The notes under the pieces are model-generated. The model had not been told where the DNA came from. It saw only the letters and a list, made by a program, of their open reading frames with translations, and searched no databases. The position numbers were made by a program, and so were the translations under genes. This document shows, in pieces, positions 5,295 through 10,321 of a DNA stretch of 13,705 nucleotides. The stretch covers positions 1 to 13,705 of the forward strand of contig DAIEEM010000221.1 of the NCBI GenBank assembly GCA_027325905.1, given 5' to 3'. This DNA is from Rhodocyclaceae bacterium. GTDB lineage: Bacteria; Pseudomonadota; Gammaproteobacteria; Burkholderiales; Rhodocyclaceae. Each line of letters starts with the position of its first letter. Position 1 is the stretch's first letter.

Positions 5295-5354
5295 AAATTC
5301 ATTGGCACGAGCGGAACCGGCGTCGTATTTCCGGGCAGAACGGCACGGCGCCAA

Positions 5355-5465
5355 GCCGAGGGTGGCGGGGGGTTGCCGCCGCGTAGGTAAAGGAGGAGGC
5401 GGACGCCTTATCGCTTTTGTCCGCCGGGGGACACGAAGCGGCGGCAACCCCCTGCCGCCCTCGGC
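5355..5465 (+). repeat. Variable-arm hairpin repeat, copy 1 (livH-livM gap)
   Basis: Outer inverted arms are at 5355-5382 and 5438-5465, complementary at 26 of 28 positions. Between them lies a 55-bp core. Its left strand is GTAGGTAAAGGAGGAGG (5383-5399). An inner stem pairs 5398-5404 (GGCGGAC) with 5419-5425 (GTCCGCC). Its right strand is CGGGGGACACGAA (5425-5437). The same two strands recur in copy 2 at 8865-8972, but with different arms and a different inner stem. On the transcript strand the AGGAGG tracts resemble a ribosome site with no suitable start codon after them. There is no T-run, so a standard intrinsic terminator is unlikely. It could be a MITE/REP-like element, or a structured RNA that tunes livM and downstream expression; the sequence does not decide. 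Confidence 0.85.
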
Positions 5466-5498
5466 GGTTAACACCGCGGCACGCTGGAACCACTAGAG

Positions 5499-6575
5499 AT
5501 GTTCTACAGAGAAACCGGACAATTCAAGACCACGTACGCGGCCGACCAGCAGATCTTCCCGATCCGCCAGGACCGCATCGGCATGCTGCTGCTGCTCGCC
5601 GTCGCCTTCGTCGGCATCCCGCTGTTCGCTTCCGAATACTGGTTCACGGCGATCCTGCTGCCCTTCCTGATCTTTGCCCTGGCGGCGCTCGGCCTCAACA
5701 TCCTCACCGGCTATGCCGGGCAGTTGTCGCTCGGCTCGGCGGCCTTCATGGCCGTCGGCGCCTATGCCGCCTACAACTTTCAGGTGCGCATCGACGGCAT
5801 GCCGGTGCTCGTCTCCTTCCTGCTGGCCGGCCTCACCGCCGCCGCCGTCGGCATCCTCTTCGGTTTGCCGTCGCTTCGCATCAAGGGCTTCTACCTCGCC
5901 GTGGCGACGCTGGCGGCACAGTTCTTCATCGTCTGGTGCCTGACGAAGTTCCCCTACCTGTCGAACGATTCCTCCTCGGGCGTCATCTCGCTGCCGGGCA
6001 TCACCATCCTCGGCTTCGCCTTCGACACGCCGCGCAGCACCTACCTGCTGGTGCTTACGCTGGTGCTGCTGCTGGCGCTGGCGGCGAAGAACCTGGTGCG
6101 CTCGACCACCGGCCGCGCCTGGATGGCGGTGCGCGACATGGACGTCGCCGCCGAGGTCATCGGCATCCGCCTGATGCACACCAAGCTGCTCGCCTTCGCC
6201 GTCAGTTCGTTCTACTGCGGCGTCGCCGGCGCGCTGTATGCGTTCTGCTACCTCGGTTCGGTCGAGCCCGACGGCTTCTCGCTCGACATGTCGTTCAAGA
6301 TACTTTTCATGATCATCGTCGGCGGCGTCGGCAGCATCCTCGGCAGCTTCCTCGGCGCGGCCTTCATCCTGCTGTTGCCGATCTTCCTCGACATCAGCCT
6401 GCCGGCCGCAGCCAGCATGCTGCACCTGCCGTTCGACAATGCCACCGTTTCGCACATCCAGTTGATGGTGTTCGGGGCGCTGATCATGTTCTTCCTCGTC
6501 GTGGAACCTCACGGCCTGGCGCGTTTGTGGCAGATTGCGAAGGAGAAGTTGCGTCTTTGGCCCTTCCCTCACTAG
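5499..6575 (+). CDS. livM: Liv-type ABC transporter permease (LivM-type)
   Basis: A 358-residue membrane protein and second half of the transporter channel. Family motifs are clear: GYAGQLSLGSAAFMAVGAY at 71-89, the cytoplasmic loop GRAWMAVRDMDVAAEVIGI at 205-223 that contacts an ATPase, VGGVGSILGSFLGA at 274-287, and EPHGLARLW (336-344) before a basic tail. A polar N-terminus of about 27 residues precedes the first membrane segment. ATG 5499 has only a weak purine-rich leader, unlike the strong sites of its neighbours. Translation may therefore be less efficient, or influenced by the hairpin repeat ending 34 bp upstream. Confidence 0.92.
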   Translation: MFYRETGQFKTTYAADQQIFPIRQDRIGMLLLLAVAFVGIPLFASEYWFTAILLPFLIFALAALGLNILTGYAGQLSLGSAAFMAVGAYAAYNFQVRIDGMPVLVSFLLAGLTAAAVGILFGLPSLRIKGFYLAVATLAAQFFIVWCLTKFPYLSNDSSSGVISLPGITILGFAFDTPRSTYLLVLTLVLLLALAAKNLVRSTTGRAWMAVRDMDVAAEVIGIRLMHTKLLAFAVSSFYCGVAGALYAFCYLGSVEPDGFSLDMSFKILFMIIVGGVGSILGSFLGAAFILLLPIFLDISLPAAASMLHLPFDNATVSHIQLMVFGALIMFFLVVEPHGLARLWQIAKEKLRLWPFPH

Positions 6576-6622
6576 GGCCGGCGCAGATTTTGTTGGAATA
6601 GTTCAACTACAAGGAGACACTC

Positions 6623-7963
6623 ATGTTCCAGAAAAGCAAGCAGTTCGCCGTCGCCATCGCGGCTTCGGCAGCTTGTCTCGCCGGGGCGTTTTCCGCGCCG
6701 GCGCAGGCCGCCGACGACCAGTACTTCATGCTGCCCGACTATCGCGTCGGCCCCTACGGCGCCAACGGCCAGGCCTTCTATGGCGGCTTCATCGACTACC
6801 TGACCTACGTCAACATGAAGGGCGGTATCGACGGCGTCAAGGTGGCCTGGGACGAATGCGAAACCGAGTACAACAACGCCAAGGGCGTGGAGTGCTACGA
6901 ACGACTGAAGGACAAGGCGAAGAAGTTCCCCGGCCCGATCCACACCATGTCGACCGGCATTTCCTACGCGCTGGTCGACAAGACGGTCGCCGACCACCTG
7001 CCGCTGGCGATGATGGGCTACGGGCTGACGATGGCGGTCGACGGCTCCGTCTTCCCCTACGCCTTCCCGCTGGTGACCACCTACCAGATGCAGGCGTCCG
7101 CCATCATCAAGTTCCTCAAGGACAAGAACGGCGGCAGCCTCGCCGGCAAGAAGATCGTCTTCCTCTACCATGACTCCGCCTACGGCAAGGAGCCGATCAT
7201 TGCCCTGGAAGCCGAATCGCGCCTCAACAAGTTCGAGCTGGTGCAGATTCCGGTCGCCCATCCCGGCAACGAGCAGGGTGCCCAGTGGCAGCGCATCCGC
7301 CAGGAAAAGCCGGACTACGTGATCATGTGGGGCTGGGGCGTCATGAACATGACGGCGATCAAGACCGCGCAGAAGATGGGCTTTCCGCGCGACCACATGA
7401 TCGGTTCCTGGTGGGCCGGATCCGAGGAGGACGTCATCCCGGCCGGCGAAGCCGCCAAGGGCTACATGTCCGCCACCTGGAACGTTTCCGGCGCGGGCGT
7501 GCCGCTGATCGCCGACATCGAGAAGACCGTGTATGGCGCCGGCAAGGGCAACCTCTCCGACAAGGCCAAGCTCGGCACCATCCTCTACAACCGCGGCGTC
7601 TCCGCCGCCGTGCTGTCGGTCGAAGCCATCCGCACCGCCCAGGCCAAGTTCGGCAAGGGCAAGCCGATGAACGGCGAGCAGGTGCGCTGGGGCCTGGAGA
7701 ACCTCAACCTTACCGACGCCCGCCTCAAGGTGCTGGGCGCCACCGGGCTGCTGCCGGAAGTGAAGACTTCCTGCGACAACCACGAAGGTTCGGGCAAGGT
7801 GAAGATCCAGCAGTGGGACGGCGCCAAGTGGGTGCTGGTGTCCGACTGGATCGAGGGCAACAAGGCGCTGATCCACCCGCTGTTCCAGGCCGACGCCAAG
7901 AAGTACGCCAAGGAAAAGGGCATCACGCCGCGCGATTGCGCCGCCGAGGCGAAGAAGAAGTAA
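6623..7963 (+). CDS. Periplasmic substrate-binding protein of the Liv-type ABC transporter
   Basis: A 446-residue secreted receptor that captures the substrate in the periplasm and delivers it to the two permeases. The N-terminus is a classical Sec signal peptide: basic MFQKSKQ, hydrophobic core to about residue 22, and cleavage after AQA (27-29). The mature part has the Peripla_BP_6-type organisation, with YGANGQAFYGGFIDYLTYVN at 45-64 near the start of domain 1. It is longer than E. coli LivK/LivJ (about 370), as is common for HAAT receptors of aromatic or other organic acids; the ligand is not readable. A strong AAGGAG (6611-6616) sits 6 nt before the ATG, fitting the high receptor level such systems need. 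It lies 47 bp after livM, and a hairpin follows its stop. Confidence 0.92.
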   Translation: MFQKSKQFAVAIAASAACLAGAFSAPAQAADDQYFMLPDYRVGPYGANGQAFYGGFIDYLTYVNMKGGIDGVKVAWDECETEYNNAKGVECYERLKDKAKKFPGPIHTMSTGISYALVDKTVADHLPLAMMGYGLTMAVDGSVFPYAFPLVTTYQMQASAIIKFLKDKNGGSLAGKKIVFLYHDSAYGKEPIIALEAESRLNKFELVQIPVAHPGNEQGAQWQRIRQEKPDYVIMWGWGVMNMTAIKTAQKMGFPRDHMIGSWWAGSEEDVIPAGEAAKGYMSATWNVSGAGVPLIADIEKTVYGAGKGNLSDKAKLGTILYNRGVSAAVLSVEAIRTAQAKFGKGKPMNGEQVRWGLENLNLTDARLKVLGATGLLPEVKTSCDNHEGSGKVKIQQWDGAKWVLVSDWIEGNKALIHPLFQADAKKYAKEKGITPRDCAAEAKKK

Positions 7964-7974
7964 GCCGGCAGGAC

Positions 7975-8000
7975 GCGGCGGGTGCATGCGCGCCCGCTGC
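7975..8000 (+). other. Intergenic RNA hairpin after the binding-protein gene
   Basis: An 8-bp stem pairs 7975-7982 with 7993-8000, with one G-U wobble and a 10-nt loop. It lies 11 bp after the binding-protein stop and has no T-run. Hairpins here in ABC operons often protect the upstream binding-protein message and lower expression of the next gene. That role is inferred from position. Confidence 0.4.
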
Positions 8001-8026
8001 GCCGCCGCTCGATACGGGACTCGCTC

Positions 8027-8830
8027 ATGTCGGCCTATCTCAACGTCAACAACATCGAAGTCATCTACGACCACGTCATCCTGGTGCTCAAGGGCGTTTC
8101 GCTCGAAGTGCCGGAGGGCAAGATCGTCGCCCTGCTGGGAGCCAACGGCGCCGGCAAGACGACCACGCTCAAGGCCGTCTCCAACCTGCTGCGCGCCGAG
8201 CGCGGCGAGGTGACCAAGGGCAGCATCGAATTCCAGGGTCGGCGCGTCGACCAGATGACGCCGAACGAGATGGTCAAGGGCGGCGTCATCCAGGTCATGG
8301 AAGGCCGCCATTGCTTCGGCCACCTGACCATCGAGGAGAACCTGCTGACGGGCGCGTATACGCAGTCGGCGTCGCGCAGCCAGTTGAAGCAGAACCTCGA
8401 GAAGGTCTACGCCTATTTCCCGCGCCTCAAGCAGCGGCGCAGCTCGCAGGCCGGCTACACTTCCGGCGGCGAGCAGCAGATGACCGCCATCGGCCGCGCG
8501 CTGATGGCCAATCCCGAGATGATCCTGCTCGACGAGCCGTCGATGGGCCTGGCGCCGCAGATCGTCGAGGAGATCTTCGAGATCGTGCGCGACTTGAACA
8601 CGCGCGAGAAGGTGAGCTTTCTGCTCGCCGAGCAGAACACCATGGTTGCGCTGCGCTTCGCCGACTTCGGTTACATCCTCGAAAACGGCCGCGTCGTCAT
8701 GGAAGGCGCCGCCGAGGAGTTGCGCAACAACGAGGACGTCAAGGAGTTCTATCTTGGCTTGTCCGGTCACGGACGCAAGAGCTTCCGCGACGTCAAACAC
8801 TATCGCCGGCGCAAACGCTGGCTGGCCTGA
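8027..8830 (+). CDS. livF: Liv-type ABC transporter ATP-binding protein (LivF-type)
   Basis: A 267-residue ABC ATPase, partner of the LivG-type subunit. Walker A is GANGAGKTT (38-46), the signature is SGGEQQ (146-151), and Walker B is LLDEP with D169 and E170. AEQN replaces the switch-His motif, as is usual for LivF proteins. ATG 8027 was chosen over the in-frame start at 7982 because MSAYLNVNNIEVIYDHV begins where LivF proteins begin and a weak GGGA (8016-8019) precedes it; the longer start would run through the hairpin. The C-terminus has a basic extension (RKSFRDVKHYRRRKRW) beyond the usual LivF end, which could contact membrane lipid or nucleic acid but has no known role. Confidence 0.92.
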   Translation: MSAYLNVNNIEVIYDHVILVLKGVSLEVPEGKIVALLGANGAGKTTTLKAVSNLLRAERGEVTKGSIEFQGRRVDQMTPNEMVKGGVIQVMEGRHCFGHLTIEENLLTGAYTQSASRSQLKQNLEKVYAYFPRLKQRRSSQAGYTSGGEQQMTAIGRALMANPEMILLDEPSMGLAPQIVEEIFEIVRDLNTREKVSFLLAEQNTMVALRFADFGYILENGRVVMEGAAEELRNNEDVKEFYLGLSGHGRKSFRDVKHYRRRKRWLA

Positions 8831-8864
8831 GATGAAACGTCCGCTGGTATCGACGGTGGAGCGC

Positions 8865-8972
8865 GATCGGGCCGGCGGGGTGCTCTGCTGCGCTTCGTGT
8901 CCCCCGTCGGCCGCCTACGGCGGCCTCCTCCTCCTTTACCTTCGCGCAGCAGAGCACCCCACCGGCCCGATC
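8865..8972 (-). repeat. Variable-arm hairpin repeat, copy 2 (livF-paaK-like gap), inverted relative to copy 1
   Basis: Outer arms are at 8865-8893 and 8944-8972, complementary at 28 of 29 positions. The 50-bp core, read on the minus strand, starts GAAGGTAAAGGAGGAGG and ends CGGGGGACACGAA, matching copy 1 almost exactly. The inner stem is GGCCGCC-GTA-GGCGGCC, different from copy 1 but also self-complementary. The arms likewise differ in sequence from those of copy 1. In copy 2 the purine-rich strand is antisense to the operon, so a ribosome-site role is not shared by both copies. The element fills much of the 258-bp gap before the PaaK-like gene. It could terminate or process transcription here, or be a small mobile repeat. 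Confidence 0.85.
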
Positions 8973-9054
8973 CGGAAGCACCGAGAAGTCTCGAACTCAA
9001 AGCACGCGCCGCCCTTGGCGCGCTCAGGCCGCGATCGAATGGGGCGTTTCATGC

Positions 9055-9071
9055 TTTGCGTGTGACGCAAA
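9055..9071. promoter_or_regulatory. Perfect inverted repeat TTTGCGT-GTG-ACGCAAA just upstream of the PaaK-like gene
   Basis: Two perfect 7-bp arms flank a 3-bp spacer, 17 bp before the chosen start codon. It could be an operator for a separate promoter of the PaaK-like gene, or a small RNA hairpin near the ribosome site. No clear -35/-10 pair was found close by. Confidence 0.4.
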
Positions 9072-9088
9072 ACGCAATGGAAAACGAC

Positions 9089-10321
9089 ATGCACTACGAC
9101 AACCTCGAAACGCGCTCGCCCGAAGAGCGCGAACGCGACCTGATGGCGCGGCTGCCGAAGCAGATCGCGCATGCGAAAACGCATGCCGCGTTCTTCGGCA
9201 AGTCGCTGTCCGGTTTCGACGCGGCGCAGGTCGACTCGCGCGCCGCGCTGGCGAAGCTGCCGGTGGTGCGCAAACATGAACTGATCGAGTTGCAGAAGAC
9301 GCAGCGGCCGTTCGGCGGCCTCGTCGCCACGCCCTACGGCAGACTCGGCCGCGTGTTCTCCTCGCCGGGTCCGATCTACGAGCCCGAAGGCCGTTTGCCC
9401 GACTGGTGGCGCACGGCGCGCGCGTTGTTCGCCGCGGGCTTCCGCGCCGGCGATCTGGTGCACAACAGCTTCTCCTACCACATGACGCCCGGCGCCTGGA
9501 TGCTCGAGGCCGGTGCGCTTGCGCTCGGCTGCACGGTGTTCCCCGGCGGCGTCGGCCAGAGCGAGCAGCAGGTGCAGGCGATGGCCGACCTGCAGCCCAG
9601 CGGCTACGTCGGCACGCCGTCCTTCCTGCGCATCCTGGTCGAGAAGGCCGATGAGATGAGCATCCGCGTGCCGCTGACCAAGGCGCTGGTGTCCGGCGAA
9701 GCCTTCCTGCCGCCGGTGCGCGATCTGCTTTCCGCTCGCGGCATCGAGGGCTACCAGGCCTACGCCACCGCCGACCTCGGCGTCATCGCCTACGAAACGG
9801 CGGCGCGCGTAGGCCTGGTTGTCGACGAAGGCGTCATCGTCGAGATCGTGCGTCCCGGCACCGGCGACCCGGTGCCTGTCGGCGAGGTCGGCGAAGTCGT
9901 CGTCACCACCTTCAACGCCGATTATCCGCTGGTGCGCTTCGGCACCGGCGACATTTCGGCCGTGCTGCCGGGCGCCTCGCCCTGCGGCCGCACCAATATG
10001 CGCATCAAGGGCTGGCTGGGCCGCGCCGACCAGACCGCCAAGGTCAAGGGCATGTTCGTTCATCCCGAGCAGGTGGCGGCGATCGTCAAGCGCCACCCCG
10101 AAGTGACGAAGGCGCGGCTGGTGATCACCAACCCCGACGCCGCCGATGCCATGACGCTGCACTGCGAAGCCGCCGCCGGCGCGGCCGGCGAGGCGCTGGC
10201 GAGGGCGGTGGCCGAGAGCATCCGCGACATCACCAAGTTGCGCGGCGAGGTCAGGCTGACCGCCGCCGGCAGCCTGCCCAACGACGGCCGGGTTATCGAG
10301 GACGCGCGGAAGTACGACTGA
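9089..10321 (+). CDS. PaaK-like adenylate-forming protein (phenylacetate-CoA ligase family), with atypical active-site motifs
   Basis: A 410-residue protein whose length and fold order match the phenylacetate-CoA ligase family, expected to form an acyl- or aryl-CoA in the cytoplasm. Supporting motifs are GTGD at 285-288 and GRADQTAKVKGMFVHPEQV from 311, the PaaK-type hinge and C-terminal domain start. Two usual elements are altered. The P-loop-like SSGTTG is SSPGP (91-95). The A10 Lys position has Arg (R401 in LPNDGRVIEDARKYD), although K408 is nearby. Activity on the acid half-reaction may thus be weak or different. MHYDNLETRSPEERE fits the family start and has GGAA 6 nt upstream; an ATG at 9077 would add four residues. 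The gene is last in the Liv operon, after hairpin repeat copy 2, so it may be expressed separately. Family is confident; substrate and activity are not. Confidence 0.85.
   Translation: MHYDNLETRSPEERERDLMARLPKQIAHAKTHAAFFGKSLSGFDAAQVDSRAALAKLPVVRKHELIELQKTQRPFGGLVATPYGRLGRVFSSPGPIYEPEGRLPDWWRTARALFAAGFRAGDLVHNSFSYHMTPGAWMLEAGALALGCTVFPGGVGQSEQQVQAMADLQPSGYVGTPSFLRILVEKADEMSIRVPLTKALVSGEAFLPPVRDLLSARGIEGYQAYATADLGVIAYETAARVGLVVDEGVIVEIVRPGTGDPVPVGEVGEVVVTTFNADYPLVRFGTGDISAVLPGASPCGRTNMRIKGWLGRADQTAKVKGMFVHPEQVAAIVKRHPEVTKARLVITNPDAADAMTLHCEAAAGAAGEALARAVAESIRDITKLRGEVRLTAAGSLPNDGRVIEDARKYD

Follow-up and report, generated by a model that had tools for sequence, protein, structure and literature searches.

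A two-hairpin repeat with a fixed asymmetric loop and freely varying, paired arms beside transporter genes of a Rhodocyclaceae bacterium

Small palindromic repeats are usually held to persist by copying and not through a function at each site. ERIC/IRU, Correia, RUP and similar bacterial MITEs are small, non-autonomous palindromic insertions in intergenic DNA with end repeats of fixed sequence, while the attC sites of integrons have variable paired arms and conserved unpaired features, one of their strands being folded and recognised. Excerpts of published work describe REPs as short palindromes of 20-40 bp (PMC3733652) whose stems vary with pairing kept (PMC2817692), and the Betaproteobacteria repeat element BRE as a sequence of about 90 bp, usually intergenic and sometimes multiple, in Polaromonas, Rhodoferax, Acidovorax, Delftia and Azoarcus (PMC3110155).

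We analysed two hairpins in a 13,705-nucleotide stretch of Rhodocyclaceae DNA, called the window here, and found both copies at the positions and with the pairing that the initial annotation had given them. In copy 1, on the plus strand, 26 of the 28 pairs between the arms 5355-5382 and 5438-5465 are Watson-Crick, the exceptions being a T·G and a G·T, and in copy 2, on the minus strand, the same holds for 28 of the 29 pairs between the arms 8865-8893 and 8944-8972, with a single T·G. All three mismatches, two in copy 1 and one in copy 2, are G·T on the strand reading GGTAAAGGAGGAGG, which we refer to as the core strand. RNA folding of each copy alone gave z = -7.8 and -9.7 relative to dinucleotide shuffles. 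According to Pfam, the neighbouring genes encode two branched-chain permeases (BPD_transp_2), a periplasmic binding protein, an ABC ATPase and an AMP-binding enzyme; copy 1 lies in the gap separating the two permease genes and copy 2 in that separating the ATPase gene from the AMP-binding gene. The features of the two copies are given below, with A and B denoting the halves of the unit described in the next section.

5355..5468, plus strand: copy 1, A half, long hairpin whose loop is conserved (cmsearch R1, 85.1 bits, E 9e-19; fold)
5355..5382, plus strand: copy 1 left arm, partner 5438-5465 (sequence; self match 93% over 28 bases)
5386..5399, plus strand: copy 1 conserved loop strand 1, GGTAAAGGAGGAGG (sequence, core scan)
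5398..5425, plus strand: copy 1 inner stem-loop GGCGGAC/GTCCGCC, 7 bp, 5398-5404 with 5419-5425 (sequence)
5425..5437, plus strand: copy 1 conserved loop strand 2, CGGGGGACACGAA (sequence)
5438..5465, plus strand: copy 1 right arm (sequence)
8863..8971, minus strand: copy 2, B half, long hairpin whose loop is conserved (cmsearch R1, 74.9 bits, E 4e-16; fold)
8894..8906, minus strand: copy 2 conserved loop strand 2, CGGGGGACACGAA (sequence)
8909..8925, minus strand: copy 2 inner stem-loop, 7 bp, 8909-8915 with 8919-8925 (sequence)
8927..8940, minus strand: copy 2 conserved loop strand 1, GGTAAAGGAGGAGG (sequence, core scan)

Arm pairing around a fixed loop in a two-hairpin unit

The core is not confined to the window, as it would be if the two copies had arisen by local duplication: the exact 14-base sequence occurs 10 times in this genome, which is 59% complete. 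With up to two mismatches there are 41 matches in the same genome, many of them due to chance, since a control alone gives 27. A scan of public genomes for both core strands returned at least 113 stretches; among the matches listed (80 titles), 79 name taxa that we take to be betaproteobacterial or say merely "Proteobacteria/Pseudomonadota", and one is Pseudoxanthomonas. The element is thus spread over the genome. The two-strand pattern was present in all five genomes of the window's genus (18, 74, 13, 30 and 14 exact-pattern halves in G000 to G004) and, with a patchy distribution, in 14 of 399 genomes of the order; for one further family within that order the figures were 75 of 299 genomes, spread over 49 of 141 genera. 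When reversed as a control, the pattern matched no listed genome in the genus, order and other-family searches. The pattern is also present in one viral contig; three Variovorax plasmids carry full doublets, and a Burkholderia anthina plasmid carries one half.

The proposal of a structured element with covariation around an invariant asymmetric internal loop was borne out by the pairing counts in two sets of halves and by the changes at orthologous gaps described below. In an alignment of 80 halves, which leaves out six of 103 representatives with poorly paired or hybrid arms (109 of 168 positions paired), 14 longer than 108 nt and three for no reason of content, 88.8% of the cells were paired, compared with 35.6-41.1% for slid partners and 52.6% for shuffles. 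Cells with two-sided changes numbered 924 against 291, and the covariation score was 0.870 against 0.201; none of 500 shuffles reached either the observed paired fraction or the observed count of two-sided-change cells. With all 103 representatives included and none dropped, 87.5% of the cells were paired, compared with 35.7-44.3% for slid partners. All 28 arm pairs showed some two-sided change in the 80 halves; the number of pairs with such a change (32 of 33) does not discriminate, as 291 of the 500 shuffles reach the same. Covariation of this kind presupposes that the arms are complementary genome-wide, and 203 of 224 distinct halves have at least 24 of 31 arm positions paired, G·T counted. 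Over these 224 halves, the arms of a copy pair with each other at a mean of 25.7 of 31 positions, compared with 19.8 for randomly drawn copies and 18.4 for shuffled arms. The sequence of the arms is free provided that it pairs on the core strand.

The internal loop, in contrast to the arms, is fixed, and it is purine-rich and asymmetric, closed by a co-varying pair beside conserved G·A positions. In the 80 halves, the loop pair column 33/84 co-varies (64 G-C and 16 A-U), column 29/88 contains 29 U-A, 15 C-G, 35 G·A and one A·A, and columns 32 and 85 are invariably A and G. Over all 103 representatives, column 33/84 contains 74 G-C, 28 A-U and one A·C. The core pattern served to collect the sequences, so that the invariance of the core is partly a selection effect, whereas the arms and the named loop pairs were free to vary.

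The usual unit is a doublet of two halves facing apart, the minus-strand half coming first; 64 of 66 close pairs have this layout, and the distance between the two cores is near-constant, mostly 83-125 nt. Each half measures approximately 97-116 nt and consists of a 28-pair arm helix and the internal loop, with arms of around 25-28 bp per hairpin and a short inner stem. Three wider pairs (L037, L142 and L113) span 434-543 nt, and no autonomous version, with a gene enclosed by two halves, was seen in loci reaching a few kilobases, L037 being the wide pair whose sequence was read. A few copies suggested a conserved middle stem in the spacer; we rejected this candidate, as z was below -2 in 10 of 70 spacers, with a median of -0.26 (single-base shuffles). 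No promoter was evident by eye in the spacers.

The doublet also accounts for the difference between the two window copies. These had been taken for two copies of one element with divergent arms, but comparison of the orthologous gaps showed that they are not two versions of the same thing: each is a different half of the same kind of doublet, at its own insertion site. Their arms differ for this reason, the partner of each half having been deleted. At the first site, G001 has a full doublet and the window one half with remnants of the other, the outer ends seem to have been fused in G003, and in G002 and G004 only a few bases are present, leaving the site nearly empty. The second site contains the other half with remnants in the window, no more than a few bases in G001 and G004, and a different sequence in G002 and G003. 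The corresponding features are as follows, the start codon at 9089 being fixed by the orthologous gaps of G001 and G004.

5304..5312, no strand: GGCACGAGC, remnant of the deleted B half, spacer-side end (full doublet at the orthologous G001 gap)
5313..5354, no strand: spacer of the former doublet (G001 alignment)
8831..9088, plus strand: whole insertion at the second site, from right after the stop codon 8828-8830 to right before the start codon 9089-9091 (absent in the orthologous G001 and G004 gaps)
8831..8842, plus strand: GATGAAACGTCC, probable 5' arm of an outer stem present in part of this genus' copies (orthologous gaps, other doublets)
9004..9023, no strand: probable remnant of the deleted A half, the ends of two arms joined (read against full doublets)
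9041..9053, plus strand: GGGGCGTTTCATG, probable 3' arm of the outer stem (copy 2 region and full doublets)

Insertion sites and the search for a mobiliser

The gene calls behind our orientation, polarity, intergenic and neighbour counts come from a codon-usage script. On these calls, 121 element groups have usable flanks and 117 of them are intergenic; groups close to the end of a locus, or not flanked by called genes on both sides, were skipped. Among 100 groups with near neighbours, the flanking genes are co-directed in 68, convergent in 21 and divergent in 11. Near co-directed genes flank solo halves of both orientations (11 sense and 14 antisense), and doublets between co-directed genes of this genus have the B half upstream in 18 of the 19 that could be assigned, 10 more being without assignment.

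A subtype found in this genus, 353-362 nt long, fills the space from stop codon to ATG at seven G003 sites, which were picked for this stop-start layout out of 19 G003 stretches. At three of the seven, relatives without the element (L233, L234, L239 and L244) read TGAGATG or TGACATG, so that these empty junctions, TGANATG, correspond to 360-362 nt in G003. Further relatives have 21 nt (L235) or an overlap (L240) at these sites. The L216 site is occupied in two relatives as well (L245 and L246), and the element there may therefore be an old shared insertion. GGAG is found 7-9 nt 5' of the ATG at six of the seven G003 sites, so that a possible ribosome-binding site is preserved for the downstream gene, which may matter; the window copies are without it. 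Comparison of orthologous sites with and without the element gave no clear target-site duplication. The ends of the element coincide roughly with the hairpin bases, and at some sites of the genus there is stop-start-like sequence at both ends, blurred by divergence.

Our preferred reading, to which we give about even chances, is that the element is a non-autonomous, REPIN-like mobile DNA element of betaproteobacteria. Mobility is deduced here from presence-absence and copy-number differences and not from observed movement; what we count in its favour are the empty orthologous sites, the doublets, the intergenic spread, the 13-74 exact-pattern halves per genome of the genus and the patchy distribution. 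Three observations count against it. Pairing is kept over species-level distances, which would be needless for a merely parasitic element; no mobilising gene, recurrent helper or clear target-site duplication was found; and the preferred polarity of the doublets (18 of 19) would suit an RNA role or transcription-linked insertion. On this reading, the core strand of each half would fold once exposed as a single strand, most likely of DNA during replication, and a protein would grip the fixed loop. Two opposite halves could then make the unit recognisable on either strand, to be cut at the hairpin bases, and the genus subtype, by landing between stop and start codon and often ending in GGAG, would leave the downstream gene unharmed.

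A true REP/REPIN moved by RAYT, a Y1 HUH transposase, would share with the element its inverted pairs, its intergenic location, its many copies and its hairpins, and one or two Y1_Tnp genes were indeed found in nine of ten element-bearing genomes searched outside the genus. However, none of 17 Y1_Tnp loci had a model match within up to 1.5 kb on each side, there was no Y1 transposase match in G000 to G003 (two of them 99% complete and one only 59%), and a half of about 97-116 nt with an internal loop is not a 20-40 bp palindrome. With no linkage to Y1 genes and with genomes lacking a Y1 match, the element cannot be filed as REP/REPIN; we reject membership on this RAYT test and consider such an origin very unlikely. 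The initial annotation had allowed for a catalogued REP/MITE-like repeat; no transposase, and hence no REP or MITE family, could be assigned.

Two other mobilisers were rejected as well: a neighbouring reverse transcriptase, with no model match at seven loci, and an IS91-type Y2 transposase, with none at two loci, in both cases within up to 1.5 kb on each side. Matches to both enzymes exist in the genus, unlinked to the element. No recurrent helper gene was found beside the copies among 360 neighbour proteins at 119 loci, the commonest neighbours being transporter and carboxylase genes, partly through orthologous loci. The patchy, abundant copies, such as the 74 exact-pattern halves of G001, a genome with no match to a Y1 transposase, lend themselves to the search for a mobilising enzyme that is not a RAYT.

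Resident copies and the folded strand

Copies occupy the same gap in different species in 61 orthologous locus pairs, two of which were skipped because both halves lie within one locus. Among these sets are seven orthologous loci flanked by what are presumably propionyl-CoA and acetyl-CoA carboxylase subunit genes, four loci, two of them titled Hydrogenophaga, five further loci, and others. In 78 half-comparisons, which overlap and are not independent, and from which those with an arm difference of 50% or more were excluded, two-sided changes kept the pair in 217 cases and broke it in 7. A null with the right-arm changes placed randomly gave means of 73 kept and 45 broken, and none of its 200 trials kept more than 91. 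Where only one side of a Watson-Crick pair had changed, the outcome at these gaps was 158 G·T, 28 A·C and 91 other mismatches. This compensatory change indicates that resident copies are held to folding, with a core-strand bias. Orthologous copies thus keep their pairing by strand-biased compensatory change while stationary, so that two possibilities can be put to the test: that a repeat of this kind serves the cell, or that the folding of single strands is constantly monitored.

A neutral palindrome, with its arms kept alike by template-switch (quasipalindrome) correction and no selection for folding, might also show many changed arm pairs, and in L036, L040 and L122 the arms do differ at many pairs while the flanks are about 90% alike. 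Correction of this kind would be expected to leave G·T as often as A·C, but the observed ratio is around 9:1 and tracks the core strand in both orientations; moreover, the unpaired loop stays fixed alongside, though the copies were partly collected by their loop. We therefore give this explanation hardly any credence. The suggestion that the arms are rewritten by intrastrand repair fails in a similar way, as repair alone does not explain the excess of G·T over A·C on the core strand (142:16).

That excess comes from the 103 representatives, in which mispairs flanked by Watson-Crick pairs, read on the core strand, are G·T in 142 cases, A·C in 16 and other in 46. It holds whichever way the halves face. 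G·T to A·C is 75:7 in sense and 69:4 in antisense halves of doublets (with 42 and 20 other mismatches), 23:1 in solo sense and 24:1 in solo antisense halves (9 and 19 others), and 110:6 in convergent or divergent gaps (63 others), these tests not being mutually independent. An excess of this size on the core strand, whatever the facing, favours folding of one strand of each half, as RNA or as single-stranded DNA. Because antisense halves show an equal bias, it is tied to the element's own strand and not to operon mRNA, and an RNA role restricted to operon mRNA was rejected on this ground. Since solo antisense halves retain the bias, we lean to DNA as the folded form, which would then be single-stranded DNA.

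The locus had at first been likened to a structured RNA, of which the structure and the covariation stand, while the RNA nature does not follow, antisense halves being biased like sense halves. A wider RNA role, in which each half is functional once its core strand is transcribed and the doublet is a bidirectional device for processing, stabilising or blocking read-through between genes, seems to us possible but somewhat doubtful. It would fit the RNA-like covariation with tolerance of G·U, the G·A positions adjoining the loop, the compensation in situ (217 kept and 7 broken, against 73 and 45 under the null), the one-sided changes (158 G·T, 28 A·C, 91 other) and the preferred polarity in operon gaps of the genus (18 of 19 assigned). 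It fits less well with the antisense halves, solo ones included, which are equally biased (69:4 and 24:1) though operon mRNA does not contain their core strand, or with the near-equal orientation of solo halves (11 sense, 14 antisense). The spacers, with neither a general stem (10 of 70 with z < -2) nor a promoter evident by eye, and the lack of an Rfam match also speak against it.

Relation to described repeat families

No curated covariance model of Rfam matched the family in the window or at eight doublet loci: there were no matches at the gathering score in the window, and the doublet loci, searched with E up to 1, gave one weak miRNA match of 35.5 bits against a cut-off of 89. Among the matches listed, the open literature contained no description of this element, BRE possibly excepted. 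PMC3733652 mentions none of six betaproteobacterial names looked for in it.

The element could be BRE in another form, given the overlapping hosts, the length of about 90 bp and the mostly intergenic location reported for that repeat. In the excerpt of PMC3110155, however, BRE is described as occurring in tandem copies with more than 70% identity, and not as inverted doublets with freely varying arms, and we regard identity of the two as highly improbable. BRE is set apart here by that description; the marker strings of the present element are GTAAAGGAGGAG and GGGGGACA. Overall, it looks as if no described family tested here covers the element, with BRE, judged by the same excerpted description, as a possible earlier sighting.

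Tentatively, and with rather more doubt than conviction, we propose that the element represents a new strand-specific fold. This fold would have a purine-rich asymmetric loop (GUAAAGGAGGAG with GGGGGACA), with a co-varying closing pair, G·A positions and perhaps a two-layer G-quadruplex between helices. It would be selected at resident sites on both DNA strands and carried by a mobile two-hairpin element outside the known transposase and RNA families, which in one genus would enter operons stop-to-start with its own ribosome-binding site. The fixed loop would be a ready bait for a putative loop-binding protein.

Compared with known systems, the element is like REP, BIME and REPIN, as far as the excerpts describe them, in having many intergenic hairpins in inverted pairs and variable stems that are still paired. 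It is unlike them in its half of about 100 nt, its fixed asymmetric internal loop and its arms of around 25-28 bp, and unlike REP/REPIN with RAYT it is absent at 17 of 17 Y1_Tnp loci and present in genomes without a Y1_Tnp match. With the ERIC/IRU, Correia and RUP MITEs it shares the character of a small palindromic intergenic insertion, but its ends vary and its inner loop is fixed. Finally, it resembles the attC sites in idea and differs from them in its inverted doublet.

Unequal and divergent halves

At one orthologous site (loci L036, L040, L118 and L122), one half of the doublet is almost constant and the other shows up to 10 two-sided pair changes, in which both bases of an arm pair differ between orthologous copies; therefore, the rates of evolution are very different for the two halves. 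At five loci (L072, L079, L089, L125 and L143), the core of the partner half has diverged, reading GAAATTAAGGAGGAG or GAAATAAAGGAGGAG together with GGGGGACATTCGCGG, and these partners are overlooked by the strict pattern, an exact search for both core strands.

Spacers and widely spaced doublets

A short tandem repeat lies within the spacer between the halves at L134, L135 and L140, and its copy number varies among these three loci. The cores of three other doublets (L037, L142 and L113) are 434-543 nt apart, including:

L037, 4347-5032: wide doublet

Judged by eye, the L037 sequence between the cores is mostly an inverted repeat, and together with the doublet it looks, from its sequence, like a single palindrome of several hundred bases.

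Occupied gaps and a plasmid-borne half

In two relatives of the same genus, G003 (L191) and G002 (L194), the stop-to-start gap orthologous to the window insertion at 8831-9088 holds another, unlike palindrome-rich sequence (TTTGCATAGCGCTGCTATGCGG... GCCTTGCATCGCTTGGCGC), and thus this gap appears to attract or tolerate insertions.

A further half was found on a Burkholderia anthina plasmid, within a catechol meta-cleavage operon, where it separates two of the genes:

L212, 2477-2583: half, model score 76.7 bits

This plasmid is typed as conjugative, and it is a possible route by which the element could spread.
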